A stretch of 64,000 nt of DNA from Desulfamplus sp. Its GTDB lineage: Bacteria > Desulfobacterota > Desulfobacteria > Desulfobacterales > Desulfobacteraceae. The position numbers were made by a program, and so were the translations under genes. This document shows positions 26,536-54,475 of this stretch, in pieces. The notes under the pieces were generated by a model. It was not told the origin of the DNA, ran no database searches, and saw nothing but the letters and a program-made list of their open reading frames with translations. The stretch covers positions 1 through 64,000 of the forward strand of contig JADFZQ010000001.1 in the NCBI GenBank assembly GCA_015232455.1, given 5' to 3'. Position 1 is the first letter of the stretch, and each line of letters opens with the position of its first letter.

Positions 26536-28629
26536 TTGAAATACAACTCTCTTGATTATAAGACACTTACATTGGCAACTGCCATTGTATTTCTATTCTC
26601 CTTTTGTGTATTTGTCTTTTTTTATGAGAGGTATGAATATAAAAAGGCTAACTACCGCATAGAGCAGCATGCTGTTGTTATCTCCAACTCTCTTTGGAAT
26701 CTAAATCCCGAAGGCTCTGAAGAGTATCTCTCACTTGCTTGTAAATCCCATAACTACAAGATAATTACCGTGCTTGACACTAAAGGTAATCTTTTCAAAA
26801 GTGCTGAGGGATATGTAAAAGGGTGGAGCGAAAGACTTTTTACATTCATACACCTTATACCTAAAATAAAACTTGAATCTGACGTGAACTATAATGGTAG
26901 AAAAATAGGCGTGATCAAAGCTATTTGGAAATGTGATACCATCTATTTAGAGATGTATGTTCTTCTGGCAATGATTCTAACTTATTTTATTTGTTATCTT
27001 AATATACGTTTAATTGGTACAAACAGCTTGCTTGAAAAGAGAGTTAAAGAACGGACAATGGAGTTATCAATTGTCAATGCTTCTCTACAGGTTGAGTTAG
27101 AAGAACATCAAAAGGCACGAGAAGCCCTTAGAAAAAGCGAAGAGAAATACAGAATTCTTATTGAGAATATACCAGACGTTGTTTACAGAACAGATATGGA
27201 AGGAAATATTCTTTTCATGTCACGCTCATCTGAATTTGTCTCTGGTTATACTGCCAAAGAGGTAATAGGAAAAAAAGTAATAGACCTGTTTTACATAAAC
27301 CCTAATGAGAGATATGATTTTATCAAAATAATTCAACAAAACGGTTATGTAAATAATTACGAAGAGAAGTTAAAAAGAAAAGACGGAACTATTTGGTGGG
27401 CTTCAACAAGTGCCCATTTTTTCAAAGATGAAAATGGTAACATTTTAGGTATTGAAGGTGTCTTTAGAGATGTAACAAGAAGAAAAATGCTTGAAAATGA
27501 ACTTAGACAAGCTCAAAAGATGGAATCAATCGGGACATTAACAGGTGGCATTGCCCACGATTTTAACAATATTCTTAACATCATGCTTGGAAATGCTGAA
27601 TTGGCTATGGAAGATATTGAGAAATCTTCTCCCGCATACCATAAAATTAAGGCTATTAAAGCTGCTGGGCAAAAAGCATCAAATATTGTTAAGCAGCTTC
27701 TAAGTTTTAGTCGTAAAACTGATATGGAGCTTAAACCGATAAATATAGCTCCAGTTGTAAGAGAATCTATTCAGCTATTAAGAGCGACTATACCCTCAAA
27801 CATAGAGATTAGTGAAAATATCCAGCCCGATATTAACGACACAATTCTTGGACATTCGACTCAAATTCATCAGATTATTATAAATCTCTGTATTAACGCA
27901 TCTCATGCAATGGAAAATATGGAAGAGGGAACTATTGATATTAGTATAGAAAACATCGTAGTTGATAAATCTGAAAAACTAAGGATAACAGTAACTGATA
28001 GTGGGATAGGAATTGATCCTGAGATAATAGATAAAATTTTTGACCCATACTTTACAACAAAACCAGTTGACAAAGGGACTGGTATGGGGCTTGCAATTGT
28101 TCTTGGTATTGTTAAAAACCATAATGGATCAATTGAAGTTGAAAGTAACCCACAATATGGAACAACCTTTACCATTTTCTTTCCTCTTCATGGGCAAGAA
28201 TCTAAGGTTGATGATAATAAAGAAGCCTTGCAAGATAATTTATATCATGGAACAGAGAGGATACTTCTTGTTGATGATGATGAATTTATTGTTGATATGA
28301 CCAATGAGATGCTTGAAAGACTTGGATATAAAGTTGAGAGTAAAGGCGACCCTGAAGAGGCTCTTGAGCTTTTTATGGCTAACCCGTCTGCTTTTGATCT
28401 TATAATTACTGATATGACTATGCCAAACATGACAGGTGCAAAACTTGCCCAAAAAGTTAAGAAAATAAGAGCTGATATTCCAATTATTGTGTCAAGTGGT
28501 TATACTTCTGAAGTAAACGAAGAGAAAGCAAGAGAGACGGGTATTGCAGCCTATTTAATGAAACCTGTATCTATGCAGGAGCTTGGGCAGACGATCAGGG
28601 ATGTGCTTGGACAGAGTAAGATAAATTGA
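26536..28629 (+). CDS. Membrane-bound PAS hybrid histidine kinase (697 aa)
   Basis: The start is TTG with AAAGGAA upstream. Two membrane helices (about 12-32 and 145-163) enclose a periplasmic domain of about 110 residues. PAS at about 200-320 (KYRILIENIPDVVYRTDMEG). HisKA with GGIAHDFNNILNIMLG, phospho-acceptor His near residue 340. HATPase with INLCINASHAM, DSGIGIDP and GTGMGLAIV. C-terminal receiver (570-695) with LLVDDD, phospho-Asp in LIITDMTMPN and Lys in MKPV. 22 nt after the LolA-like gene. A repeat separates it from the TonB receptor. Confidence 0.92.
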   Translation: MKYNSLDYKTLTLATAIVFLFSFCVFVFFYERYEYKKANYRIEQHAVVISNSLWNLNPEGSEEYLSLACKSHNYKIITVLDTKGNLFKSAEGYVKGWSERLFTFIHLIPKIKLESDVNYNGRKIGVIKAIWKCDTIYLEMYVLLAMILTYFICYLNIRLIGTNSLLEKRVKERTMELSIVNASLQVELEEHQKAREALRKSEEKYRILIENIPDVVYRTDMEGNILFMSRSSEFVSGYTAKEVIGKKVIDLFYINPNERYDFIKIIQQNGYVNNYEEKLKRKDGTIWWASTSAHFFKDENGNILGIEGVFRDVTRRKMLENELRQAQKMESIGTLTGGIAHDFNNILNIMLGNAELAMEDIEKSSPAYHKIKAIKAAGQKASNIVKQLLSFSRKTDMELKPINIAPVVRESIQLLRATIPSNIEISENIQPDINDTILGHSTQIHQIIINLCINASHAMENMEEGTIDISIENIVVDKSEKLRITVTDSGIGIDPEIIDKIFDPYFTTKPVDKGTGMGLAIVLGIVKNHNGSIEVESNPQYGTTFTIFFPLHGQESKVDDNKEALQDNLYHGTERILLVDDDEFIVDMTNEMLERLGYKVESKGDPEEALELFMANPSAFDLIITDMTMPNMTGAKLAQKVKKIRADIPIIVSSGYTSEVNEEKARETGIAAYLMKPVSMQELGQTIRDVLGQSKIN

Positions 28630-28680: not shown

Positions 28681-31017
28681 ATGATGCTTTACTATGATTC
28701 TTTAAAAAATTTGTTTTTTAATACGGCTCTAATTACCGCCTTTCTTTTGTATCCGATATTTAGCATAGCACAATCATCAAAGCCCAGAAGCTCTGTTGAG
28801 GCTCTTGCTGATTTGAGTATAGAGCAGTTAATGTCAATTGAGGTAAGCTCCACAACTTTCTTTGACACTCCTCCTGAAAAAGCCCCGGGTTCTATCTATC
28901 TTATTTCACAAGAAAAAATGGAAAATTCCTATTCATCAAGTATCTCTGATTTTCTTGAGTATTATGTTCCGGGTGTAAATATCTCAAGGGCTTATAGTGC
29001 TGGGTCTCTCTATTCAGCAAGGGGAATTGCATCTCCATCTAACTCTACCACTCTTTTTATGGTTAATGGCACAAACATGAATGTAAGCAGTGGAACAGGA
29101 ATCAACACAAACCTTAACCTCCCACTTCTTGGTGATGTTGAACGTATAGAGGTTTTAAAAGGTCCATGTTCAATTATTCATGGTAGTGGCTCTATAAATG
29201 GGTTTATAAACGTAATTCAAAAAAATGGCAGAGATAATCAGGGTGGATTTATTAACACAGAAGCTGGATTAAATGATGGGCTTATCAAAACAGAGACTGG
29301 TTACGGAGTATCATCTTCAGAATATGGAGATACTTTTATCTATGCTGGTGCTGTAAAATCAGATGGGATTAGCGAGTATGGAGACAATGCCTCTAATAAC
29401 CAAAGCACAATAAATGATAACTATTTTCCTAATATAAATAGCCGCTTTTCTTTAAATTGGGAAAAAGATAATTTTCATTTAATTACCTTTTTTCAAAACG
29501 AAGAGGTCGAATCTACATTACCTTGGAGACCCTTTAAAAAAGAATCAACTACAACTGCTGATGCTAATAATATTGCTACCAGCAACACCAGTGATACTAT
29601 TACTAATAAATCTTCAGATTTTTCTAATAAACATGTTGGTATGAAAACTATGGCTCTACTTCCTCAGTTGAATCTTGATCTTACCGATACTGAGAAGCTG
29701 ACTATAGAGCTACCTATCCAATATTTTGAGTATGATCCAGCATACTTCTCTTCAGAGGCATTTGATCTTGATTCAGAGATTCAACTTAAATCAAATCTTA
29801 TATTTAAGACAACAAGATTTTCAAACCATAGGGTTGCTCTTGGAGGCTCGACCTGTTTTAAGCAGTTTGATTCTGACCGTGTCTCAATCTATATCCCATC
29901 AATAATTACAGAAGACGATGATTTTATGGTTGATACAAAAGCAGACTTACATTGGTTTGATAGTTCTCTATTTTTTGAAGATAACTATCAGTTGACAAAA
30001 AATCTGACACTCTTTGCAGGTCTTAGATACGATACTACCTATGGTTCTTCTAATAGTTTTAAAAATGTTGAGAGCTTTACTATAAGTGGTGATGATGGAG
30101 AGATAAATTATATTCCATCTGGCTCTTTAGAGCTTAGTGTAGATGGAGGTTTTGGGTATGCTTTAATACCAAGATGTGGATTCACTTATGACATTGATGA
30201 ACATAAAATAGTTAAATTTGTATATCAAGAGGGATACCACAACTCTGATTATATAACGATAATGAAATATCTAAATTCATTTAGCGGCGGAGAGCCAATT
30301 GTGTCAGAAGAGGTAGAGAGTTATGAGTTAAGTTATTACCAAGATTTTATGAACCGTAGATTTCAATTTAATCTTAACATTTATAGCAATATTTTTGATA
30401 ACACTATCTTGATACTAATGGATCAAGATGAAGATGGGTTTGTTGATAGCCAAATTACTGATGAATTTATATCATCTGGCTTTGAAGCATCTTTAACTTA
30501 TAACCCTGCAAACGATACAACTATGGAGGTCTCCTACTCTTTTTCTCAACCATATAATATGGACGATGATACTAAAGTTAATCCTCATCTTGTTAATAAA
30601 ACAGGTGAACTCTGGAAAGCATTTCCTGAACATACAGTCAAGCTCAATTTAACCAAATCGTTTATGAATGAGAAGTTAGCTATTTCATTAGGGGGCATTT
30701 TTAACAGTGCTACTAATACTTCTGAACAGAGTGAAATTTTAATTGATCAAAGTAGCGATAATGAAACACTAATACAAGATACACAAACCCCAGAATCTAA
30801 CCCAAACATACAAGAAGATATGTTTAACCACGACAGATTTCTCTTCAACATAGGTGCAAGATACCATTTAACTAAAGAGTTATCTTTAGTAGTTAAAGGT
30901 GAAAATATCTTTAATAATGATGTACCAGCCGCAGGATACTACTATAACCTTCAAAATTCTGAAAATATCTCCTTAGAACACCCAACTTACTATATTGGTC
31001 TTAGCTGGAAATTCTAA
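28681..31017 (+). CDS. TonB-dependent outer-membrane receptor (778 aa)
   Basis: A signal peptide is followed by a plug domain at about residues 50-170: IEVSSTTFFDTPPEKAPGSIYLIS, SDFLEYYVPGVNISR, LFMVNGTNMN, VERIEVLKGPCSIIHGSG. The remaining 600 residues are amphipathic strands, ending in a C-terminal Phe (YYIGLSWKF), the outer-membrane insertion signal. IEQLMSIEVSS near the N-terminus is typical of receptors paired with YfiR proteins. Its stop overlaps the ATG of the YfiR-like gene (TAATG). Ligand unknown. Confidence 0.92.
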   Translation: MMLYYDSLKNLFFNTALITAFLLYPIFSIAQSSKPRSSVEALADLSIEQLMSIEVSSTTFFDTPPEKAPGSIYLISQEKMENSYSSSISDFLEYYVPGVNISRAYSAGSLYSARGIASPSNSTTLFMVNGTNMNVSSGTGINTNLNLPLLGDVERIEVLKGPCSIIHGSGSINGFINVIQKNGRDNQGGFINTEAGLNDGLIKTETGYGVSSSEYGDTFIYAGAVKSDGISEYGDNASNNQSTINDNYFPNINSRFSLNWEKDNFHLITFFQNEEVESTLPWRPFKKESTTTADANNIATSNTSDTITNKSSDFSNKHVGMKTMALLPQLNLDLTDTEKLTIELPIQYFEYDPAYFSSEAFDLDSEIQLKSNLIFKTTRFSNHRVALGGSTCFKQFDSDRVSIYIPSIITEDDDFMVDTKADLHWFDSSLFFEDNYQLTKNLTLFAGLRYDTTYGSSNSFKNVESFTISGDDGEINYIPSGSLELSVDGGFGYALIPRCGFTYDIDEHKIVKFVYQEGYHNSDYITIMKYLNSFSGGEPIVSEEVESYELSYYQDFMNRRFQFNLNIYSNIFDNTILILMDQDEDGFVDSQITDEFISSGFEASLTYNPANDTTMEVSYSFSQPYNMDDDTKVNPHLVNKTGELWKAFPEHTVKLNLTKSFMNEKLAISLGGIFNSATNTSEQSEILIDQSSDNETLIQDTQTPESNPNIQEDMFNHDRFLFNIGARYHLTKELSLVVKGENIFNNDVPAAGYYYNLQNSENISLEHPTYYIGLSWKF

Positions 31018-39606: not shown

Positions 39607-40575
39607 TTAAACTACAGGTCTTGGCAGCATTCCTGCCCTTTCTGCTATCTCTGGCACCATCTGTTCCCATTCAATCGCCATCAAGTGAACTCCAGCAACT
39701 CCTTTCATCTCTTTAAATTCCTCAATCTGTTCTAATGCAAATTTAATTCCCTCTTCTGCCTGTTTGCCTTTTTCTGCACCTTTCAGGCGATTTATAAGAG
39801 ACTCTGGCACATCCATTCCGGGAACCATTTTGCCCATAAATGATGCCATTCTGGCACTCTTCATAGGTGTTACACCTGCAAGAATATAGCATTTCTCATG
39901 CAAACCCATATCAACAACCTGTTTCATAAATGTTCTAAATTTGTCCATGTTGTAAATGCACTGAGTTTGAATAAAATCTGCTCCTGCTGCGATCTTGTTG
40001 GCAAGTCTATAAACCCTGTATTCAAAAGGATCGGCAAAAGGATTACATGCAGCACCAACAAAAAGTTTTGGAGCAACATCAATCTTTTCGCCATTTAAAA
40101 ACTCTTCTTTATCTCGCATAGTAGTAACAAGATTTATAAGCTGCATAGAGTCAATATCGTGAACATTTTTAGCTTCTGGATGGTTGCCAAAAGATTGATG
40201 ATCTCCAGACAGGCATAACATGTTGCGAATACCCAAAGCATAAGCCCCTAAAATATCGCTTGTTATTGCAAGACGATTTCTGTCACGGCAAACCATCTGA
40301 AAATTTGGCTCAAGCCCATGATCAATCATCAAGTGTGACGCAGCAAGGCTTGACATTCTTACTACTGCTGTTTGGTTATCTGTAATGTTGACTGCATCAA
40401 CATTACCTTTAAGATGATGAAATTTTTCAACAAGATGGTGAACATTAGCACCTTTAGGAGGTCCGCACTCTCCTGTAAATGCAAAATGTCCAGCTCTTAA
40501 AACTTTTTCAAGATTGCTTCCAGATTTGAAATCGCCTTCTGGCTTTACATTATTTTCTGAGTTGATTTCACTCAT
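39607..40575 (-). CDS. metF: Methylenetetrahydrofolate reductase, MetF type
   Basis: A 322-aa MTHFR barrel (PF02219). It starts LEKVLRAGHFAFTGECGPPKGAN with the conserved Glu, then DAVNITDNQTAVVRMSSLAA, VCRDRNRLAITSDILGAY, LCLSGDHQSFGNHPEAK (folate/flavin side), AGADFIQTQCIYNMDKF and AGVTPMKSARMA. It reduces methylene-THF to methyl-THF in the Wood-Ljungdahl pathway. 20 nt after metV. MetF-MetV pairs without an NAD(P)H site draw electrons from attached Hdr/MvhD subunits, which precede it in the operon. Last gene before the terminator. Confidence 0.93.
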   Translation of the reverse strand: MSEINSENNVKPEGDFKSGSNLEKVLRAGHFAFTGECGPPKGANVHHLVEKFHHLKGNVDAVNITDNQTAVVRMSSLAASHLMIDHGLEPNFQMVCRDRNRLAITSDILGAYALGIRNMLCLSGDHQSFGNHPEAKNVHDIDSMQLINLVTTMRDKEEFLNGEKIDVAPKLFVGAACNPFADPFEYRVYRLANKIAAGADFIQTQCIYNMDKFRTFMKQVVDMGLHEKCYILAGVTPMKSARMASFMGKMVPGMDVPESLINRLKGAEKGKQAEEGIKFALEQIEEFKEMKGVAGVHLMAIEWEQMVPEIAERAGMLPRPVV

Positions 40576-40595: not shown

Positions 40596-41264
40596 TTACT
40601 GTGTCAGCTCTTCCCTGATGCTTCTTCTTGGTCCACCGTCTCTTGCTGTTCTCCAATCTTTTACAGCTCTTACTTTTAAAAGATCGTTGAGCCTGCCCTG
40701 CTCCATTTTTTTTGATACAATAGAATCCCATATACAGATAGTCTCTTTTGATATTTCGCATTTGCCTTTTGAAGAGCCTCCGCATGGTCCATGAAGAAGA
40801 CTTTTTGCACAACGAGCAACTGGGCATAATCCGTCAAAATCGTGGATTATACATGTTCCGCAGCCAGCACACCTCTCTTCCCAGATACCATGTGTAACAG
40901 CTCCGCCAAAAAATGTGGTGTTGACTGCTGGATAGAATTTTTGCTCTCTATACGCTTCAGATAGAAACTGAGGTCCAACTCCGCAAGCCATTGAAACAAC
41001 GGCTTCGTAATTCCCAACTGTCTCCTTGAGTTGAGCAACATACTCATTGTCGCACTGCCGCTCAATCACTTTAGTGTCAATATTTATCTCTCTTCCCTCT
41101 TTCTGTCTTGCAATTCTCAAGGCAGATGCAAGAATTGAAACCTCTTTTTCTCCACCTACATTACAGACTGTAACACAGCCTTTGCAACCAAGTACCATTA
41201 TATTTTTATAGTCTTTGATCATGCTCAATATTTCTTCAAGAGATTTACGATCTGCTACTATCAT
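40596..41264 (-). CDS. metV: MetV-like zinc protein, partner of MetF
   Basis: A 222-aa 'methylenetetrahydrofolate reductase C-terminal' (MTHFR_C / MetV) protein. The N-terminal half has NIMVLGCKGCVTVCNVGGEKEV, the C-terminal half WEERCAGCGTCIIHDFDGLCPVARCAKSLLHGPCGG, a Cys-rich cluster able to hold zinc or iron-sulfur, then GKCEIS. In Moorella MetV binds MetF and bridges to the Hdr/MvhD module. The gene follows mvhD after a 161-nt spacer with hairpins, and metF follows 20 nt later. Confidence 0.9.
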   Translation of the reverse strand: MIVADRKSLEEILSMIKDYKNIMVLGCKGCVTVCNVGGEKEVSILASALRIARQKEGREINIDTKVIERQCDNEYVAQLKETVGNYEAVVSMACGVGPQFLSEAYREQKFYPAVNTTFFGGAVTHGIWEERCAGCGTCIIHDFDGLCPVARCAKSLLHGPCGGSSKGKCEISKETICIWDSIVSKKMEQGRLNDLLKVRAVKDWRTARDGGPRRSIREELTQ

Positions 41265-41289
41265 TTCTCACCTCTTAGTGTGTTGTTTT

Positions 41290-41425: not shown

Positions 41426-41851
41426 CTAAGCAGCTTCTTTTTTCCTTACAGGTGTAGGTCCAAGAGTTTTTATTTTTTCGTTCATTTCGCGGGCAATCTC
41501 TGCAAACTTAAGCCCCATTGCAGATGAAAGGCTAAACATCTCAACTCTTTCAGGTTCAATGCCAATCTCTTGTAAAATCTTTTTCACGTAATTGACTTTT
41601 TTTCTGGTCTTTATATTTCCTGTCAAATAGTGGCATTCGCCTTCAAGACAGCCTGCCACATACACACCGTCTGCACCGTTTTCAATGGCATTTAAAAGAT
41701 GCAAAATATCCACTCTGCCAGTGCATGGCACCTGAATCACCTTTATATTTGAAGGGTAGGAAAGCCTCATGGAACCTGCCAGGTCCCCAGCAGCATAAGC
41801 TCAATATTGGCAGCAAAAGGCGATAATCATTGGTTCAAAAGAGCTATTCAT
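41426..41851 (-). CDS. mvhD: MvhD-type hydrogenase iron-sulfur subunit with selenocysteine (141 aa)
   Basis: ATG at 41851 has GGAGGAG 6 nt upstream. Translation reads MNSSFEPMIIAFCCQY, UGA (41801-41803), AYAAGDLAG, then SMRLSYPSNIKVIQVPCTGR, VYVAGCLEGECHYLTGN. MvhD has a Cys at this place (FxCxWCSYxxADLAG), so UGA is read as selenocysteine at residue 17, as in VhuD. Reading only from ATG 41770 would drop the conserved Cys pair, leaving a fragment. A hairpin follows at SECIS distance. MvhD passes electrons between a [2Fe-2S] site and HdrA. Confidence 0.88.
41770..41789 (-). promoter_or_regulatory. Putative SECIS hairpin of mvhD
   Basis: On the - strand TGG-G-GACCT pairs with AGGTTCCA around a GGC loop, one bulged G. 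The loop starts about 20 nt after the UGA codon, inside the 16-37 nt window of bacterial SECIS elements. Confidence 0.55.
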
Positions 41852-41874: not shown

Positions 41875-44800
41875 TTATGCAGCCTTAAAAAGTGCATCAG
41901 TTTTTGCCATAATCTGGTCATCTGTGAAGTGGTTAAGTTTTATTGCCTTACCCGGACATTCTGAGACGCACAGACCGCAGCCATGACACTCACTTGCGTC
42001 AATCACTGCATATCCATCTTCGTGAATATATGGAATACCATAGGGACAAGTTCTGACGCAGGTAAGACAAACCGCACACTTTTCAGGCTGCACAACTGCA
42101 ACAACACCACCCACCATTATGGAATCCCTTGATACAATTCGCATCGCTCTTGATGCTGATGCTTTTGCTTGTGCAATACACTCTTCAAGAGGTTTTGGAT
42201 AGTGTGCAAGACCCGCTACAAAAAGACCATCAGAGGCAAAATCAACAGGTCGAAGTTTTGCGTGAGCCTCCACAAGAAAACCTTCTGCATTGACAGGAAC
42301 CTTGAATGCCTCAAACAGATGTTTGTTTGCATTTGGCACAATACCTGATGCAAGAACAAGAATATCAGGAGTGATCTTTATCTCCATTCTTAAAACATGA
42401 TCAATTACTGTAAGCTCAAGAGTGCCATACCTATCCTTGTCATATTTAGTGGTATCGCCTTCTGTTCCCTGTGGCATGATAGCCTTGACTTGAGGCAGCT
42501 TATCAAGATCATATCTTATAAATATAATGCCTTTCTGCCGTGCTTCTTGATAGAGGTCTTCCCTGAATCCATAAGAGCGAATATCACGATAGATAATGTA
42601 AACTCTTGTTCCTGGTCTTCTGTTTTTCACCTCAATTGCACTTTTCAAGCTATGCGTGCAACATATCTTACTACAGTATGGTTTATCGCTGTTTCTTGAA
42701 CCAACACATTGAATAAACGCTACAGTTTTAGCCTTAGAAAGCCTTTTATCTGCATGTTCAAGAACCTGATCCATATCTAAATGGGTCAATACATTCGGAT
42801 GTTCTCCATAAAGATATTGATTTGGCTTGTCTTCTTTGCCTCCAGTTGCAATGATGGCGGCACCATGTTCAACAGTTATGAGGCTTTTCAAGCCAGCTTT
42901 TGAACTACCAGTTTGACCACCAGAAGCTGTTGTAATGTTTGTTAAATCTTCTTTTGCTACCTTCGACTCTTTAGAGATTGAAGATGATAGAGTAGTGATG
43001 AAATTTCCAAGACTTCCTGTGGTATTTTTCACCTCAGTATTTAGATAAAGCTCGATATTGGAATTCTTATTTACTCGTGAGATAAGTTCATTAAGCCACG
43101 GTTGAATAGCTTCTCCCTGCCATGTTGCTCTCAAGTGTTTTGCATTGCCTCCAAGCTCTTCACTCTTTTCCACAAGAATTGCCTTAAAACCTTGTTCTGC
43201 AACGCTTAAAGCTGCCTCCATACCTGATATTCCACCACCAATAACCAGCACTGACTTTTTGATTGCAAGTTTTACCTGATGAAGAGGCTCAACATAAGCT
43301 GCTTTTGCTACAGCCATACGAACAAGGTCTTTTGCTTTTTGAGTAGCTTTTTCAGGGCTATTCATGTGCACCCAAGTATTTTGATCCCGTATGTTTGCCA
43401 TTTCAAAGAGATATTTGTTAAGCCCCGCTTCTCTTATTGTCTCCTGAAATAAAGGCTCATGGGTTCTTGGTGAGCATGATGCCACAACGACCCTGTTTAT
43501 ATCTTTATCAATTATAACCTTTTTTATATGATCTTGAGAATCTTGCGAACAGGTGAAAAGATTATCCTCAACATGAACAACATAAGGTAATGTTCCAGCA
43601 TAGTTTCGCACTGCTGGCACATCAGCAACCCCACCAATATTTATTCCACAATTGCAGACAAACACACCAATACGAGGCGATATGCTTGAAAAATCACGCT
43701 CTGGTGGAAGCTCTTTAGTTCTGGTTAAGCTCCACCTCTCCCCTGCAAGAGTTTGAGCAGCCATTGCAGCAGCGGCTGATGCCTCCATAACTGACATTGG
43801 AATATCTTTTGGTTCTTGGAATGCTCCGCAGACAAAAATACCATCTCGTGTTGTATTGACAGGAGAAAGATTTGAGGTTTTTGCAAACTGATGGTGATTT
43901 AGTTCAATTCCCATTACCTGTGCAATTTGGGCAGCGTCAGAGCATGGGGCAAGTCCTACAGAAAGAACCACCATATCAAAGATTTCTTCAGCAGTTGAGC
44001 CTGATTCTGTTGCATAAACAAGACGCAACCTGTCATCTTTCATAGGGAAAATTGAGTGTATTCGAGAACGGACAAATCTGACTCCACTCTCATCTTCTGC
44101 ACGGATATTGTATTTATCAAAATCTTTTCCATGCGTTCTCATATCCATAAAAAAGATTGCTGTATCTAAATCATGATCGCTGTGCTCTTTTGCAATAACT
44201 GCCTGCTTGTTGGCATACATGCAGCAAACACCTGAGCAGTAGCTGTGTCCACCCCTATTGATGTCCCTTGAACCAACACATTGTAGCCATGCTATCTTTT
44301 TGGGTTCTTTTTCGTCTGACGGTCTTACAAGATGACCTTTGTATGGACCTGAAGCAGACAAAAGTCTCTCAAACTCAATACTTGTAACTATATTTGGGTT
44401 TGAGCCATATCCGTAAGTTTCATATACAGCAGGATTAAATGGTGTAAAACCAGGGGAGAGAATAATTGCACCAACCTCAATTTCATAAGTTTTTGGAGTC
44501 ATTGAATGGTCAACAGCTTTGGCAAGACAGGCATCAACACACGCCATACACTCTGAGCAGTATCCGCAGTTAAGACAACGTTCAGCCTCTTTTTGTCCAT
44601 CTTGCTCATCAAGCCCAAGCTCCACTTCATTGAAATTACCTTTTCGATAGTCAAGGCTAAGTTCTCGAACTCTTGCACGTTCAGCTTTGGGAATATTTTC
44701 AGAGATTGGTGTATAGTCAGGAAGATTAAAACCGCTGATTTTGTCTTTTTCTTCTTTACCCATTTCTATTTCAGATGAGTTTATTGTTTTGGAAGAATTT

Positions 44801-46650
44801 ATATTTCCGTTCTTACCCCTTCCAAGAGCCATATCCTCACCTTTGAGATAGCGTGAGATGGATTCAGCAGCCTCCATTCCAGCAGCAATGGCAGCAATGG
44901 CAACCCCAGGTCCAGTTTGTAAATCGCCACCAGCAAACACCCCTTTTTTGCCTGTCTCAAAAGTGATGGGATTGACTTCAGTAGTTGCCCATTTTGTGAT
45001 TTTGATCTCACCTGTCTCTTTGATTTTGCCGTCATCCTTGCTACTTTGGTCACCCGTGCTGCTCTGTGCAGCGGCAGAAGTTTCCTTAATTCCAGAGACA
45101 TCTGGTTGTTGACCTATTGCATAGATAAGCTGATCAATCTCAAGGTCATATTCACTTCCCACAACTGGCACGGGTCTGCGTCTTCCAGAGGAGTCAGGCT
45201 CACCAAGCTCCATTCTTATACAGCGAATTGCCGATAATTTACCTTTTTGCACTACAGTTGTATGACCTTCTGATGATGTTTTTGTAGAGGAATCTGCTTT
45301 TTCTGACTCATCAACAGTTGTTCCAATTGCCTGTTGAGGTGCTGACAAATAGATTATCTCAACGCCTTCATGTTCAGCAGCACAAATTTCCTCTTCCCAT
45401 GCTGGCATCTCTTTTCTGGTTCTGCGATAGATTATAGTTACTTTCTCAGCCCCCAGACGCACAGCACTTCTTGCCACATCAATTGCAACATTACCGCCTC
45501 CGATAATTGCAACTCGTTTGCCTGTTTTGGTGTTACCTGTAAGATTTAACTCCCTGAGATAATCAACGCCTTGTCTTACTCCATCAAGGTCGCTTCCCGG
45601 AATCGCAGGATCAATCCCCTTATGAGCACCCATGCCAAGAAAGACAGCATCAAAGCCATCTGCAAGCAGAGAGTCAATGGTCATTTTATCTCCGATAGGA
45701 GTATTGAGCCTTATTTCAACCCCAAGATTAGTTATAACCTCAATATCACGGTCAAGAACTTCGGGAGGAAGGCGATGGTCTGGAATTCCAACTCGAAGCA
45801 TTCCGCCAGCTTTTGGCAGAGCTTCAAATATGGTTGATTTTATTCCTTTTTTAGCAAGGTGATATGCAGCAGAGAGTCCCGCAGGACCAGAACCTATTAT
45901 AGCAACTTTTTTTCCAATTAAAGGCTCACACTCAATCTTAATCTGCCTTGCATCAAATTTATCTGCTGCAAGGCGTTTTAGCTCTCTTATGGCAATTGGC
46001 TGATCAACTTCACCTCTTCTACAGCCGTTTTCGCACTCATGAGGGCAGATTCGCCCTAAAACACCGGGTAGAGGCAACTGCTCCATGATAATCTCAAGAG
46101 CTTCCTTATATTTGCCCTTTTTCACCATCTGGACATAACCCTGAACATTTAAGCCAGCAGGGCATGTGAGTTTACAAGGTGCACGGTCGCCTTTTTCAAT
46201 TGTATATGCACTTGGCATTGCCTGAGGATAAAGCTTAAATGCAGCCTTGCGATTACCTAAACCTTCATCAAACTGATTTGGCAGTTCAACAGGGCAGACG
46301 CTTGAACACTCTCCGCAGGCTGTACATTTATCAGTATCTATAAATCTTGGCTCTTCAAGTAGTTTTACTTTAAAATTACCAGCAGTACCACTAACTTCTC
46401 GAACGTGGGTTTTATTTAAAAGCTCAATGTTGAGGTGTCTCCCTGCTTCTACAAGTTTGGGAGAGATAATGCACATAGAGCAGTCATTTGTGGGAAAAGT
46501 CTTGTCAAGTTTTGCCATTACACCGCCAATGGCAGAGTTATTATCAACAAGATAGACAAGATAACCTGAGTCTGCAAGGTCAAGAGATGCCTGAATACCA
46601 GCAATACCAGCACCAACAACCATCACAGAACCGTTATTTTGTTGGGTCAT
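41875..46650 (-). CDS. hdrA: HdrA-GltD-HdrA fusion: flavin/iron-sulfur electron-bifurcating subunit (1591 aa)
   Basis: Three flavoprotein modules. Module 1 (about 1-130): VVGAGIAGIQASLDLADSG, FPTNDCSMCIISPKLVEAGR, CTACGECSSVCP. Then a GltD/NfnB-like insertion (about 160-610): CKLTCPAGLNVQGYV, CPHECENGCRRG, IIGSGPAGLSAAYHLAKKG, and NADPH-type IIGGGNVAIDVARSAVRLG. HdrA module 1 resumes at CLNCGYCSECMACVDACLAK (about 690-1010). A full second HdrA follows (about 1030-1591): IGVFVCNCGINIGGV, VLVIGGGISGMEAALSVAEQG, and two C-terminal [4Fe-4S] motifs. Starts in an ATGA overlap with the HdrD-like gene. Three polar insertions punctuate the chain. Confidence 0.92.
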   Translation of the reverse strand: MTQQNNGSVMVVGAGIAGIQASLDLADSGYLVYLVDNNSAIGGVMAKLDKTFPTNDCSMCIISPKLVEAGRHLNIELLNKTHVREVSGTAGNFKVKLLEEPRFIDTDKCTACGECSSVCPVELPNQFDEGLGNRKAAFKLYPQAMPSAYTIEKGDRAPCKLTCPAGLNVQGYVQMVKKGKYKEALEIIMEQLPLPGVLGRICPHECENGCRRGEVDQPIAIRELKRLAADKFDARQIKIECEPLIGKKVAIIGSGPAGLSAAYHLAKKGIKSTIFEALPKAGGMLRVGIPDHRLPPEVLDRDIEVITNLGVEIRLNTPIGDKMTIDSLLADGFDAVFLGMGAHKGIDPAIPGSDLDGVRQGVDYLRELNLTGNTKTGKRVAIIGGGNVAIDVARSAVRLGAEKVTIIYRRTRKEMPAWEEEICAAEHEGVEIIYLSAPQQAIGTTVDESEKADSSTKTSSEGHTTVVQKGKLSAIRCIRMELGEPDSSGRRRPVPVVGSEYDLEIDQLIYAIGQQPDVSGIKETSAAAQSSTGDQSSKDDGKIKETGEIKITKWATTEVNPITFETGKKGVFAGGDLQTGPGVAIAAIAAGMEAAESISRYLKGEDMALGRGKNGNINSSKTINSSEIEMGKEEKDKISGFNLPDYTPISENIPKAERARVRELSLDYRKGNFNEVELGLDEQDGQKEAERCLNCGYCSECMACVDACLAKAVDHSMTPKTYEIEVGAIILSPGFTPFNPAVYETYGYGSNPNIVTSIEFERLLSASGPYKGHLVRPSDEKEPKKIAWLQCVGSRDINRGGHSYCSGVCCMYANKQAVIAKEHSDHDLDTAIFFMDMRTHGKDFDKYNIRAEDESGVRFVRSRIHSIFPMKDDRLRLVYATESGSTAEEIFDMVVLSVGLAPCSDAAQIAQVMGIELNHHQFAKTSNLSPVNTTRDGIFVCGAFQEPKDIPMSVMEASAAAAMAAQTLAGERWSLTRTKELPPERDFSSISPRIGVFVCNCGINIGGVADVPAVRNYAGTLPYVVHVEDNLFTCSQDSQDHIKKVIIDKDINRVVVASCSPRTHEPLFQETIREAGLNKYLFEMANIRDQNTWVHMNSPEKATQKAKDLVRMAVAKAAYVEPLHQVKLAIKKSVLVIGGGISGMEAALSVAEQGFKAILVEKSEELGGNAKHLRATWQGEAIQPWLNELISRVNKNSNIELYLNTEVKNTTGSLGNFITTLSSSISKESKVAKEDLTNITTASGGQTGSSKAGLKSLITVEHGAAIIATGGKEDKPNQYLYGEHPNVLTHLDMDQVLEHADKRLSKAKTVAFIQCVGSRNSDKPYCSKICCTHSLKSAIEVKNRRPGTRVYIIYRDIRSYGFREDLYQEARQKGIIFIRYDLDKLPQVKAIMPQGTEGDTTKYDKDRYGTLELTVIDHVLRMEIKITPDILVLASGIVPNANKHLFEAFKVPVNAEGFLVEAHAKLRPVDFASDGLFVAGLAHYPKPLEECIAQAKASASRAMRIVSRDSIMVGGVVAVVQPEKCAVCLTCVRTCPYGIPYIHEDGYAVIDASECHGCGLCVSECPGKAIKLNHFTDDQIMAKTDALFKAA

Positions 46651-47954
46651 TGGATACCTCCTTCAATATCTAAACCAAATTCAGCAAGATCAGGTCCAAG
46701 ATAGGTTCGTTCGTTTTCACCAAGAACACCCATTGCAAGACAAATGATGGTCCAAAGATGCAGAGTGTGATAATTGCCTCCGTAGTGATGGCACATATCC
46801 TCAATCTGAGCATGGCAGTTGTGGCAAGGAGTGATTACATATTTAGCACCTGTTTCGATGATCTGGTCAAATTTTACCTTTCCATAGGCTCGCCGCTGTT
46901 CAGTATGACCTCCTTGCAAGGCACCGCCGCCACCTCCGCAACAGTAGTTATTTGAACGATTTGGAACCATATCAACAAAATTCTCCTCACCTACCACAGC
47001 TTTAACAACAAATCGTAAATCATCAACTATCTTGTTGGTTCCAATTTTTCTACCAATATTACACGGGTCTTGAACTGTAAATTTTATCTTTAAATCTTTG
47101 TTCCAATCTGAATTGACCTTTAGGGTGCCGTCTTTAATCCACTGGGCATATAGTTCTATTATACTTTTAAATTCAAATGTGTGCGGTATGTTGTATTTTC
47201 TCAATCCTTCCAGGATTGAATAGTATGAGTGTCCTCACTCGGTATTGACAACAACCTTGCATTTGAGATTGTGTTCAATGTGGTAAACAAACTCCTCCAT
47301 GATGTATCGCCACCCCTCGTCATCAGCTAAAAACATGCAGTAGTTTTCGCCACCCCACATTACAGTCGGATATGTCCAATCTGCCTTTGCCCTGTGGAGA
47401 ATCTTCCACAGAGGTCCAAGTTCATCAGGCTCTGTTACAGGCTCACGGGAATTTTGGTTCAGAGCCATGTATGCACCAACTCTGTCAGCCGTGATCTCAA
47501 GATCGCTAAATTCTGGTGATGCCTCCCTGATCTCATTTGCCACATCTTCAACTGTAAATACAAAATCTTCTTTGGGAACTCCCATTGCATTGCCAGCTTT
47601 TATATGCTGATCGCAAGAGCCTCGAATACCTTTTGGACGTTTGTCTCTGTCCCAGCTTGCACGGACATTGTAAACAAATTTGGGAATATTGATTTTCATG
47701 GGACATGCTGACATACATCGTCCACACATTGTGCAAACCCATGCCCAAGGGCTTTTTTTGATTTCGTCATCCATGCCAAGCAGCAGCATACGCAAAAATT
47801 TTCTTGGATCCATGCCATACTGCTCAGATGCAGGGCATCCGCCAGTGCATGTTCCGCAGGTGAGGCAGAGATCAAAGTTTGCCTCTGGTATGCGGTTTGC
47901 TACCTCATCTTTAAAATCGCATGTAAACTCTTGAAGTTTAATTGCTTCTGCCAT
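46647..47954 (-). CDS. HdrD-like (HdrC-HdrB fused) iron-sulfur protein with selenocysteine (435 aa)
   Basis: TAGGAGGAG precedes the ATG. The HdrC part has CLTCGTCTGGCP and CTMCGRCMSACP. The HdrB/CCG part reads LKCKVVVNTE, UGA (47235-47237), GHSYYSILEGLRKYNIPH, then DPCNIGRK, NYCCGGGGGAL and ITPCHNCHAQ. Homologs have TECGHxYY, so UGA stands for Cys and is read as selenocysteine at residue 240. The frame is open on both sides, and a near-perfect SECIS-type hairpin follows. Reading UGA as stop would split one protein into two. Proposed disulfide- or quinone/menaquinol-side electron site, partner of HdrA. Confidence 0.9.
47201..47219 (-). promoter_or_regulatory. SECIS hairpin of the HdrD-like selenoprotein
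   Basis: On the - strand a perfect 7-bp stem TCAATCC/GGATTGA encloses loop TGGAA. The loop starts 22 nt after the UGA codon; a short stem and a small loop with G in the first two or three positions is the bacterial SECIS pattern. Confidence 0.75.
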
Positions 47955-48099
47955 ATTGACTACTCCTCCTAACTTCAGCCGTAAAATAATGTTTTTGCTG
48001 CGTAATAGTTTTCAGAAGGGGGATACCATATAGTTCTCAGATGTGCGGGGAATGTTATTTTTTTATAATCAGGTGTAAACTAATCTTGATTGCAAATGT

Positions 48100-49090: not shown

Positions 49091-49663
49091 CTATTTAAGC
49101 CCGAGCAATGTTGCAACTTCATCTTTTAGGCGAGAAAGAGGCAGCGGCTTAGAAAGGCAGAGATCAGCACCATTATCCTTCATCTGCTGAAACTTTTCGT
49201 CATCTAAATAGGCAGAAAGAACTACGATCTTGATATGCTCAGTCTCTTTGTTTCCTTTGATTTTCTTGCACACCTCATAACCCTTTATGTCAGGCATCAT
49301 TATATCAAGTATAAGAAGATCTGGTTTAAAGTGGTTGACCTGAAGACCTGCCTCAAAACCATCAGATGCAGAGATAACCTCATAATCATACTCATCTTCT
49401 TCAAGACACTGCACAATTGATTCAACAATAATAAGGTCGTCATCAACAACTAAGATTTTTTTTCTGGCAGTATCGTCATTTCCCTTAGGAATTGGAATCC
49501 CTTGATTCTCCATAAAGTTCTCCAAATCGCTCTTCTTGATTCTGCGATGCCCACCTACTGTTTTGTATGCTTTGATGTGCCCTGCGTCTATCCAATTAAT
49601 GATGGTCTTGGACGAGACATTGCAGTACTTGCTTGCGGTAAACACGGTCATGGTGTCTTCCAT
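49091..49663 (-). CDS. Excisionase/MerR-type HTH fused to receiver domain (190 aa)
   Basis: ATG at 49663 follows GGAGGG at 8 nt. Residues 5-53 form a winged helix typical of helix_turn_helix_17/MerR N-termini: MTVFTASKYCNVSSKTIINWIDAGHIKAYKTVGGHRRIKKSDLENFM. Residues 69-190 are a receiver: KILVVDDDLIIVES, LLILDIMMPDIKG with phospho-Asp near 120, VVLSAYL, LSKPLPLSRL. No output domain other than the HTH. Placed between the met/hdr operon and a divergent receiver-kinase, so it may regulate one of these in response to phosphorylation. Confidence 0.85.
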   Translation of the reverse strand: MEDTMTVFTASKYCNVSSKTIINWIDAGHIKAYKTVGGHRRIKKSDLENFMENQGIPIPKGNDDTARKKILVVDDDLIIVESIVQCLEEDEYDYEVISASDGFEAGLQVNHFKPDLLILDIMMPDIKGYEVCKKIKGNKETEHIKIVVLSAYLDDEKFQQMKDNGADLCLSKPLPLSRLKDEVATLLGLK

Positions 49664-52648: not shown

Positions 52649-54475
52649 TTAGAGAATAACTCGTCTCTCTATAGGGGTAAAACGCCCAGCCCCTAACGGA
52701 AGCTCAACTCCTTGACTCCTTAGCCAACCAGCTCTTGTGCAAACAGATGCACCAAACAGAAGGTTAAGGGCAATATCAGCAACTTTTCTGTTGTCGCTTT
52801 TTTCTAAATATGTGCCTTTAACCCATTGGTTAAAAGCACCAATTGATGGTCCACACCATATTTGGTAATCCATCTTTCTATCTGGATCCCCATTAATAGA
52901 CCAGCGTGATGATAAACCAAGATATGATCTGAAAACTAAAGCCATTTTATGGCGAGGCTCTTTCTCTGCTCGTTCAAGCTCTTTTATACTCTGTTGAGCT
53001 ATGGCTCTATTTGCATTTCTTGCTCTAAAAAACTCTTTAGTCTCTTGCCATTTTTGGTCAAAAGTGGCTTTAAGATATTTCTCCTCTATCTCTTGTTTTA
53101 TCTTTTCAGGGACATCTTCAATTTTTTCATAGTTTTTATAGATTTGATAGAGCTTTTCTGCTCTAACTGAAAACATAGTCCCTCGCTTCAGCACCTGAAC
53201 TCTTGCCCCAATTTCAAACATATCAGCAGCAGGAGCCATTGCAACATCAGCTTGTTCTGCTTGAGCAAGAAGTGATTTTACAACTTCTGACGTGCCAGCC
53301 TCAACACATGATTGATTTATAGAGCCAGTTAAAATGTATGCAGCCCCCATCTGGAATGCTGCTGCTGCTGATTCTGGAGTTGAGATTCCACCTGCAAACC
53401 CAACGCACAAAGGTTCTGCATAATTAAACTTTTGATTGAGTTCATCTCTAAGTGCTATCATAGTGGGCCACAACGATATTGCAGGACGGTTATCTGTGTG
53501 TCCGCCTGAATCTGCCTCTGCTGTTAAATCTTGTGCCATTGGAATATATTGGGCTAATTGAGCCTCTTCGTTTGATATAAGCCCTTGATTTAAAAGCTCA
53601 GATACAAGTTTTTGAGGAGGAGGAGAGAAAAACTGCCGTGCAACTTCAACTCTTGAAACTTTGGCAATTATCTGATATGGAGTGATTATATTCCCCTCCA
53701 TATCACGGTGGATTCCTTTTAAGCGATAGTAAACAAGAGGGAGAGTTATACGCATAAAAGCCGCAGCACTAACTTTATGAACTCCATGTTTAATATAGAG
53801 TTGTGCAAGAGCCATCTCAAAATCTGGATCACCATGAGAGTGTATAAAGTTAAATCCAAAAGGAAGGCAGCTTGATTGATAGGATTTTGAGTAATCTAAA
53901 TAAGAGGTTGTATCTGTTAAATGAGATTTATCAAGTCTCTGTTTAAGATAGACAATAGCCTTTTCAACTTCAGAAAGCGATAAACCTCCAGCACCAAAAA
54001 AAGCAATCATGCCATTTTTTGCCATAGATTCAACCATTTGAACTGACGTGATGCCGTTTGCCATAGCTCCAGCAATATATGGGTATCTAAGATTATGGCG
54101 AGCTTTAAAAGCAGAATCTCCAAGGTTTTCAAGTGGTAAGGGCGGAATGTATGCTATGAGCTTTAAATAGTTTAGATTTTCTTCCATTTCAGGTAAGATT
54201 TTATCTGTTATCAATGCTGTGCCACCACGCACCCATTGATCTTTTCCAGCATTATTAACAAGATAAATAGAGTCGTTGATATGAGTTAATGCCTCTTTTA
54301 TATCAATAATCTCTGAAAGCTCTTCTCTATCAAGAGTGTTTGAAAGCTCTTGTTTATTAATAGTAGCCGAAAGCACTTCTCTATTTTTAGGTGAACTATC
54401 TGAAATATCTTCTAAATTTTCTTTTTTTTCCTGATAGTGGCTATTATTTTCCTCACACCAGTAGCCTTTAAACAT
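52649..54475 (-). CDS. pfaD: PfaD-type trans-acting enoyl reductase (608 aa)
   Basis: A 2-nitropropane-dioxygenase-like FMN barrel. RYPYIAGAMANGITSVQMVESMAKNGMIAFFGAGGLSLSEVEKAI starts it, then PFGFNFIHSHGDPDFEMALAQLYIKHGV, TAEADSGGHTDNRPAISLWPTM, CVGFAGGISTPESAAAAFQMGAAYILTGSINQ (phosphate binding), and QIWCGPSIGAFNQWVKGTYLE, FGASVCTRAGWLRSQGVELP. This is PfaD of polyunsaturated-fatty-acid and related polyketide synthases. No PfaA, B or C is in the window. The first 70 residues are a polar extension with repeated L-S/N-[ST]-x-D-[RK]-E-E-L units. Confidence 0.88.
   Translation of the reverse strand: MFKGYWCEENNSHYQEKKENLEDISDSSPKNREVLSATINKQELSNTLDREELSEIIDIKEALTHINDSIYLVNNAGKDQWVRGGTALITDKILPEMEENLNYLKLIAYIPPLPLENLGDSAFKARHNLRYPYIAGAMANGITSVQMVESMAKNGMIAFFGAGGLSLSEVEKAIVYLKQRLDKSHLTDTTSYLDYSKSYQSSCLPFGFNFIHSHGDPDFEMALAQLYIKHGVHKVSAAAFMRITLPLVYYRLKGIHRDMEGNIITPYQIIAKVSRVEVARQFFSPPPQKLVSELLNQGLISNEEAQLAQYIPMAQDLTAEADSGGHTDNRPAISLWPTMIALRDELNQKFNYAEPLCVGFAGGISTPESAAAAFQMGAAYILTGSINQSCVEAGTSEVVKSLLAQAEQADVAMAPAADMFEIGARVQVLKRGTMFSVRAEKLYQIYKNYEKIEDVPEKIKQEIEEKYLKATFDQKWQETKEFFRARNANRAIAQQSIKELERAEKEPRHKMALVFRSYLGLSSRWSINGDPDRKMDYQIWCGPSIGAFNQWVKGTYLEKSDNRKVADIALNLLFGASVCTRAGWLRSQGVELPLGAGRFTPIERRVIL

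Follow-up and report, generated by a model that had tools for sequence, protein, structure and literature searches.

A probable HdrD-like selenoprotein encoded with hdrL, mvhD and metV-metF in a Desulfamplus genome

An interrupted reading frame in the hdrL-mvhD-metVF region

We analyzed a stretch of 64,000 nucleotides from Desulfamplus sp. (GenBank assembly GCA_015232455.1, contig JADFZQ010000001.1, positions 1 to 64,000, hereafter the window) and focused on a minus-strand gene at 46647-47954 whose frame is interrupted by a UGA codon. It belongs to an operon with the order metF2-hdrD(Sec)-hdrL-mvhD(Sec)-metV-metF, where Sec stands for selenocysteine, and this order is largely conserved in relatives. 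The comparative data presented below indicate that it is very probably a real gene, encoding a selenium-containing electron-transfer protein of a sulfate-reducing bacterium.

The frame runs from an ATG at 47954 to a TGA stop at 46649-46647. An AGGAGG at 47965-47970, 5' of the ATG, resembles a ribosome-binding site. The single interruption is an in-frame TGA at 47237-47235, codon 240 of 435, flanked by the residues VVNTE and GHSYYS. Re-reading of the sequence thus confirmed the initial annotation of this DNA, which had described a frame broken only at this position. It had also expected automatic annotation to split the gene, and this holds for the open reading frame (ORF) finder used here, which yields two pieces of 239 and 185 amino acids. 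Frame reading, domain searches and structure matches together delineate, across the UGA, a 435-residue product with an HdrC part for two [4Fe-4S] clusters (residues ~25-100) and an HdrB-like part with two CCG domains (residues ~160-426).

UGA and cysteine at column 240 in homologues

To describe the family, we used 80 of 200 confirmed loci, 29 further loci from a search of 194 genomes (best matches only), and the loci of the genome itself; the fetched homologues have at least 57% identity to the query. Among the 101 distinct ones, a UGA occupies column 240 in 73 and a Cys codon in the other 28. The initial annotation had placed the UGA on a conserved Cys in the motif ECGH and proposed an alignment of this column as a check. 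The same motif is found in three Cys relatives from this genome that are more distant (L004, L005, L007; 27-32% identity). Two closer paralogues in this genome carry one state each: L002 (contig C22) has a Cys at the Sec column and an hdrA-like stretch downstream, and L003 (C77:76701-77954), 57% identical, has a TGA there. UGA also occurs in records named as strains, e.g., Desulfocicer vacuolatum DSM 3385 and Desulfosarcina alkanivorans PL12. Separately, a distant relative in locus L126 (13147-14274; 37% identity), which shares its locus with a close one, has a TGA at the same column.

The sequence comparisons indicate purifying selection on the part downstream of the UGA. The ratio of nonsynonymous to synonymous substitution rates (dN/dS) in this part is 0.034 for L058 and 0.040 for L060, both pairs with unsaturated dS. 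Values for L063 (0.018) and L064 (0.025) are rough, with dS above 2.6, and dS was saturated for L059 and L065.

A quick tree was built with 103 rows, 73 with U and 30 with C; it includes L004 and L005, both Cys and both outside the 101. Removed beforehand were identical sequences, the 37%-identical second match in L126, L008, which has a gap at the column, and L007, a Cys sequence of 22% identity. The tree needs at least six changes of the U/C state, and starred branches force four of them. Two Cys rows, L037 and L040, form a pair within the 30-row UGA clade of the window (the clade is starred; the branch excluding L076 has a value of 88), which fits a change from Sec to Cys there.

A hairpin of the SECIS type follows the UGA

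A hairpin of the bacterial selenocysteine insertion sequence (SECIS) type, with a stem of 7-8 bp and GG in the loop, lies at 47201-47219 on the minus strand (UCAAUCC-UGGAA-GGAUUGA). The 7-bp stem and 5-nt loop given in the initial annotation stand, and the distance needs correction: the stem begins 15 nt past the UGA, and what lies 22 nt past it is the loop. The minimum-energy fold has 8 bp and a 3-nt loop. The first 48 nt, counted from the UGA, have a folding energy of -12.5 kcal/mol (z = -3.9), and none of 200 dinucleotide shuffles was equally stable. When the same peptide was recoded synonymously 5000 times, 31 recodings retained all seven pairs and 46 folded equally well or better. Hence, chance is an unlikely source of the codon choice.

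The hairpin follows the state of column 240. All six inner pairs are retained by 66 of 68 distinct UGA stretches vs 1 of 28 Cys stretches, and the loop has GG in all 68 of the former. The pair at offsets 21/33 varies among these 68, being G-C in 38, A-U in 28 and U-A in 2. The UGA stretches, here 70, fold with a mean energy of -14.2 kcal/mol and the 28 Cys stretches with one of -9.4 kcal/mol; since the sequences compared are related, the test value is not a true probability (the numbers 70 and 68 reflect the removal of duplicates at 54 or 48 nt). These comparisons support the decoding of UGA 240 as Sec with the help of the hairpin that follows it. Concerning the protein, the codon at offset 24-26 past the UGA specifies Leu, Arg or Gln in UGA homologues and Trp or Tyr in Cys homologues, and the RNA element thus seems to constrain the helix residues after the Sec.

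Selenocysteine machinery and host

The genome, an assembly of 82 contigs that is 98.47% complete, contains selA, selB, selD and tRNA-Sec, each above its family cut-off (for tRNA-Sec, 74.4 bits vs a cut-off of 47). The search for selA, selB, selC and selD proposed in the initial annotation therefore gave a positive answer for all four. That annotation had named two findings that would speak against it, namely a genome lacking selB or selC, and homologues with the two halves as separate proteins and a residue other than Cys at the UGA column; we found neither. For comparison, among 14 control genomes the cut-off was exceeded for selB in two, selA in one, selD in two and tRNA-Sec in five, and looser matches to selB, selD and tRNA-Sec occurred in all 14. 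The host's own selD (C77:143397-144323, L018) itself has one in-frame TGA.

The host also has a dsrA above cut-off, found in none of the controls, and a CdhC/AcsB-type gene, found in two of them. It is thus very probably a sulfate reducer with the Wood-Ljungdahl pathway. Its nearest named relatives are Desulfamplus.

Fold and cluster ligands of the HdrD-like protein

Pfam searches placed 4Fe-4S dicluster domains inside residues 25-89 and a CCG domain at 293-384. Scores against the nearest curated NCBIfam models fell far below their cut-offs (HmcF, 170 bits vs 750; TmcB, 167 vs 735; DsrK, 111 vs 400). The GlpC model TIGR03379 gave 39 bits, far below its cut-off of 279.9, and the label GlpC under which this family was published (see below) is thus a loose one. 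In an AlphaFold2 model built from 32 rows (pLDDT 86.2), structural matches to HdrB chains cover residues 161-427 (Z 19.8-20.9), and a match to the soluble, HdrC+HdrB-like part of mycobacterial EtfD extends over residues 12-413 (Z 25.3, 2.9 Å, 369 residues, 17% identity). The protein is an HdrC fused to an HdrB in a single chain, and HdrD-like, the identity proposed at the outset, is right as a domain description.

All 101 family members have the eight N-terminal cluster Cys, as well as C206, C298, C338, C339, C377, C380, E239, G241 and H242. The HdrD of methanogens has two complete CCG motifs for two noncubane clusters. Here only one is complete (C298/C338/C339/C377/C380), and the N-terminal motif is, by alignment, down to U240. 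Hence, we call the protein HdrD-like and not HdrD.

In the description of EtfD, four Cys (C503, C538, C581 and C584) ligate the N-terminal cluster, and H583 together with five Cys ligates the noncubane one (PMC13083937). EtfD residues C581, H583 and C584 align with U240, H242 and S243. By this alignment (~16% identity), only two of these N-terminal positions are kept in the family, C581 (as Sec or Cys) and H583 (as His). FadF and DgcB likewise lack the first-cluster ligands (PMC13083937). C206 was considered as a partner thiol of the Sec, but it falls on a gap, 13 positions past the residue aligned with EtfD C538.

The operon and its second selenoprotein gene, mvhD

All genes of the operon are on the minus strand. 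The hdrL-type gene (41875-46650) overlaps the end of the hdrD-like gene by four bases and encodes 1591 amino acids, an HdrA with an inserted GltD-like NAD(P)H domain. The HdrA2 model NF040770 matches it in pieces and under the cut-off, and the NAD(P)-binding protein model PRK12771 matches above it.

The next gene, mvhD (41426-41851), is a second selenoprotein gene that the initial annotation had missed. It encodes 141 amino acids with the motif CQYU, i.e., the CxxU listed for MvhD/FrhD in the available part of a recent survey (PMC13188914); the ORF finder sets its start too late, at 41770. Its in-frame UGA is codon 17 (41801-41803), and in 79 distinct mvhD-like stretches this column is TGA in 39, Cys in 37, Ser in 2 and Gly in 1. 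A probable SECIS hairpin (GGGACCU-GGC-AGGUUCC; 41771-41787) lies 13 nt past this UGA. Its six inner pairs (GGACCU-GGC-AGGUUC) are intact in 38 of 39 TGA stretches vs 2 of 37 Cys stretches. What counts against it is that the window's own minimum-energy fold pairs otherwise and is no stabler than shuffles (z ~ -0.3). The evidence for this hairpin thus comes from the homologues.

Further downstream, Pfam matches identified a metV-type gene (PF12225, methylenetetrahydrofolate reductase (MTHFR) C-terminal type) at 40596-41264 and metF, encoding MTHFR (PF02219), at 39607-40575. Since the genome has five matches to PF12225, the metV of the operon is not its only metV-type gene. Upstream of the hdrD-like gene lies a second, divergent metF-like gene (PF02219; 48100-48978), for which we coined the label metF2. 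A metF-like gene is present upstream in 19 of the 20 named loci L058-L077, L076 being cut by a contig end. Downstream, mvhD, metV and metF are found in 11 of the 15 named loci having at least 7.5 kb from the gene start, and the mvhD of these 11 has UGA in ten cases and Cys in one (L071). The gene set MetFV-HdrABC-MvhD is co-located in the window as far as genes go (MetF, MetV, HdrA, HdrB, HdrC and MvhD, with HdrC and HdrB fused).

A scan of the whole window for frames broken only by UGA returned 18 places, and family searches were made for two of them, 47237 and 41803. The place at 28627 (711 + 795 codons) resembles the stop of an ORF (26536-28629) followed by an in-frame ORF (28681-31017), the one at 41270 just precedes the metV start, and the one at 48014 precedes the start of the hdrD-like gene. 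Also on the minus strand, a gene at 49091-49663, upstream of the operon, encodes a helix-turn-helix domain fused to a response-regulator receiver and is a possible regulator. The product of another, at 52649-54475 (608 residues), has an inserted helical domain of the FabD type and matches NMO weakly, under the cut-off; we presume that it may be a PfaD-like enoyl reductase.

Comparison with known systems

The comparisons in this section refer to the accessible parts of the cited papers. A selenoprotein family named 'Fe-S oxidoreductase (GlpC)', also 'Fe-S oxidoreductase-like protein', was reported in 2006, with operons in Syntrophobacter and Desulfotalea that include HdrA, FrhD, FrhG and FrhA (PMC1794560). 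The same family was listed in 2026 with the motif UGH and a largely uncharacterised function (PMC13188914). The gene in the window resembles it in encoding a deltaproteobacterial Fe-S protein with Sec, UGH and Cys homologues, in an operon with HdrA and FrhD selenoprotein genes. We assigned it by this motif (U240-G241-H242). Unlike the published five-gene operon, which has frhG and frhA, the operon described here has hdrL and metV-metF.

In Desulfobacterium autotrophicum HRM2, a 2009 report described a Sec-containing HdrD4, HdrL1-3 and a Sec-containing MvhD (PMC2702500). There too, HdrD is homologous to HdrCB and one copy has Sec, HdrL is an HdrA/glutamate-synthase fusion followed by mvhD, and four MvhD have Sec. 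The difference is that, in the parts of this report available to us, HdrD4, HdrL, Sec-MvhD and MetV-MetF are not assigned to a single operon. From the reports of 2006 and 2009, the gene belongs to a known kind.

The association of MTHFR with Hdr subunits has precedents as well: Moorella thermoacetica has a known MetFV-HdrABC-MvhD (PMC5861303), and a metF-HdrABC has been predicted for Seep-SRB1g (PMC10553843). In both, as here, MTHFR is joined to HdrABC-type subunits, in Moorella also to MvhD. Unlike in these systems, in the window HdrB and HdrC are fused, HdrA has an NAD(P)H-domain insert, and two subunits have Sec; the term 'selenocysteine' is absent from the text of PMC10553843. As to structure, the protein shares the HdrC+HdrB fold with EtfD of Mycobacterium smegmatis (9ojn; PMC13083937), where His583 of the CPHC motif aligns with His242. 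It differs from EtfD and from HdrB (5odc) in having no membrane part and in having lost the N-terminal cluster ligands save the Sec position.

In the open-licence literature of PubMed Central, we found no description of Sec-HdrD, HdrL, Sec-MvhD and MetVF as one operon, which is not proof of absence, nor any paper joining DsrK, noncubane and CCG. The selenoprotein family is already published, and we found no description of this version of the operon.

Proposed function and alternative explanations

We consider it highly likely that the gene encodes a genuine HdrD-like selenoprotein, a subunit of an HdrA/HdrL-type complex working with MetF/MetV, in which Sec240 would be a selenol beside a noncubane cluster. 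The protein would belong to a soluble, probably electron-bifurcating complex acting with MTHFR. By analogy with the structures of HdrABC and MvhD, one side of the electron path would comprise the HdrL flavin, the NAD(P)H site of the GltD-like insert, and MvhD, which also has a Sec; the other would comprise two cubane clusters and the single complete CCG motif of the HdrD-like protein. The single noncubane cluster would be held by C298, C338, C339, C377, C380 and H242. Sec240 is the only N-terminal CCG ligand left, and two residues further on comes His242, the counterpart by alignment of the ligand His of EtfD; the selenol is thus probably near the cluster. It would sit at the interdomain cleft, adjoining the noncubane cluster, where it may modulate the cluster, or where a disulfide or another thiol acceptor may be reduced by it or attack it. 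Complex formation and a disulfide as acceptor are likewise inferred, and the direction of flow, i.e., oxidation or formation of methyl-tetrahydrofolate (methyl-THF), is not readable from sequence.

Several points weigh against this interpretation. The decoding of Sec rests on comparative sequence data, selenium at position 240 being a prediction, and gene order is the basis for the partnership with MetFV/HdrL. Four of the 15 close relatives (L069, L070, L072 and L073; Desulfosarcina, Desulfatitalea) have no metV/metF downstream, and L071 has no match to the GltD-like insert. The Cys members likewise have hdrA and mvhD neighbours; hence, Sec is not essential to such a complex. The alignment to the 5odc HdrB puts U240 on Cys81 and not on Cys78, i.e., on the second Cys of CxxC, and in the alignments to 8rvv/8rvu and 9ojn it is the first. 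All these alignments to solved structures are at about 15% identity, and Sec may have replaced either cysteine of the CxxC.

One alternative accepts the selenoprotein, and we regard it as possible, if clearly the less probable: Sec, standing for EtfD Cys581 or HdrB Cys78/81, would be a direct ligand of an Fe-S cluster and not a free selenol. The aligned cysteines of EtfD and HdrB (Cys78, and Cys81 as given in PMC13083937) are indeed cluster ligands. Still, by alignment the family has residues other than Cys where EtfD has C503, C538 and C584, and a whole N-terminal cluster is thus unlikely; Sec could still touch the C-terminal cluster. More speculatively, and in our view rather unlikely as a whole, the operon may encode a two-Sec, NAD(P)H-linked bifurcating MTHFR complex in which Sec has replaced a whole noncubane cluster and acts with the remaining one on a disulfide acceptor. 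Its mode of action would resemble that of ferredoxin:thioredoxin reductase.

Readings without Sec fare much worse. The UGA could be a true stop between two genes, for an HdrC-like protein of 239 amino acids and a CCG protein of 185 amino acids from a TTG at 47204, as ORF finding lists two ORFs and the HdrC and HdrB of methanogens are separate proteins in solved structures. We find this very improbable. The cut would lie inside the HdrB-like part (model residues 161-427) and not between HdrC and HdrB, the 28 Cys homologues are uninterrupted, one single-frame tblastn match spans the codon in the UGA rows, and the TTG lies 33 nt past the first UGA base, within the 3' arm of the hairpin. A sequencing error or a pseudogene might be suspected, since the assembly is a draft (82 contigs) and just one nonsense codon is at issue. 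This reading is refuted by the 73 distinct homologues, named strains among them, that have the same UGA, and disfavoured by the dN/dS of 0.03-0.04 downstream in the two pairs with unsaturated dS. An altered code with UGA read as Trp or Gly throughout the genome has nothing in its favour and is just as implausible, given that the column is otherwise Cys, with Trp or Gly in no fetched family member, that tRNA-Sec, SelA, SelB and SelD are present, and that 3 of 12 genes checked, the hdrD-like gene among them, end in TGA.

A selenoprotein read through UGA 240 has implications for genome annotation and for the family. One operon would contain two selenoprotein genes, both broken by ordinary ORF calling, which makes it a clean case of missed selenoproteins. 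If the reading as a two-Sec complex were true, electrons from methyl-THF could drive the reduction of NAD(P)+ against that of a disulfide. For the family, the emptied N-terminal cluster site of the HdrB-type fold, near His242, is a testable site for its Sec and could explain the role of this residue.

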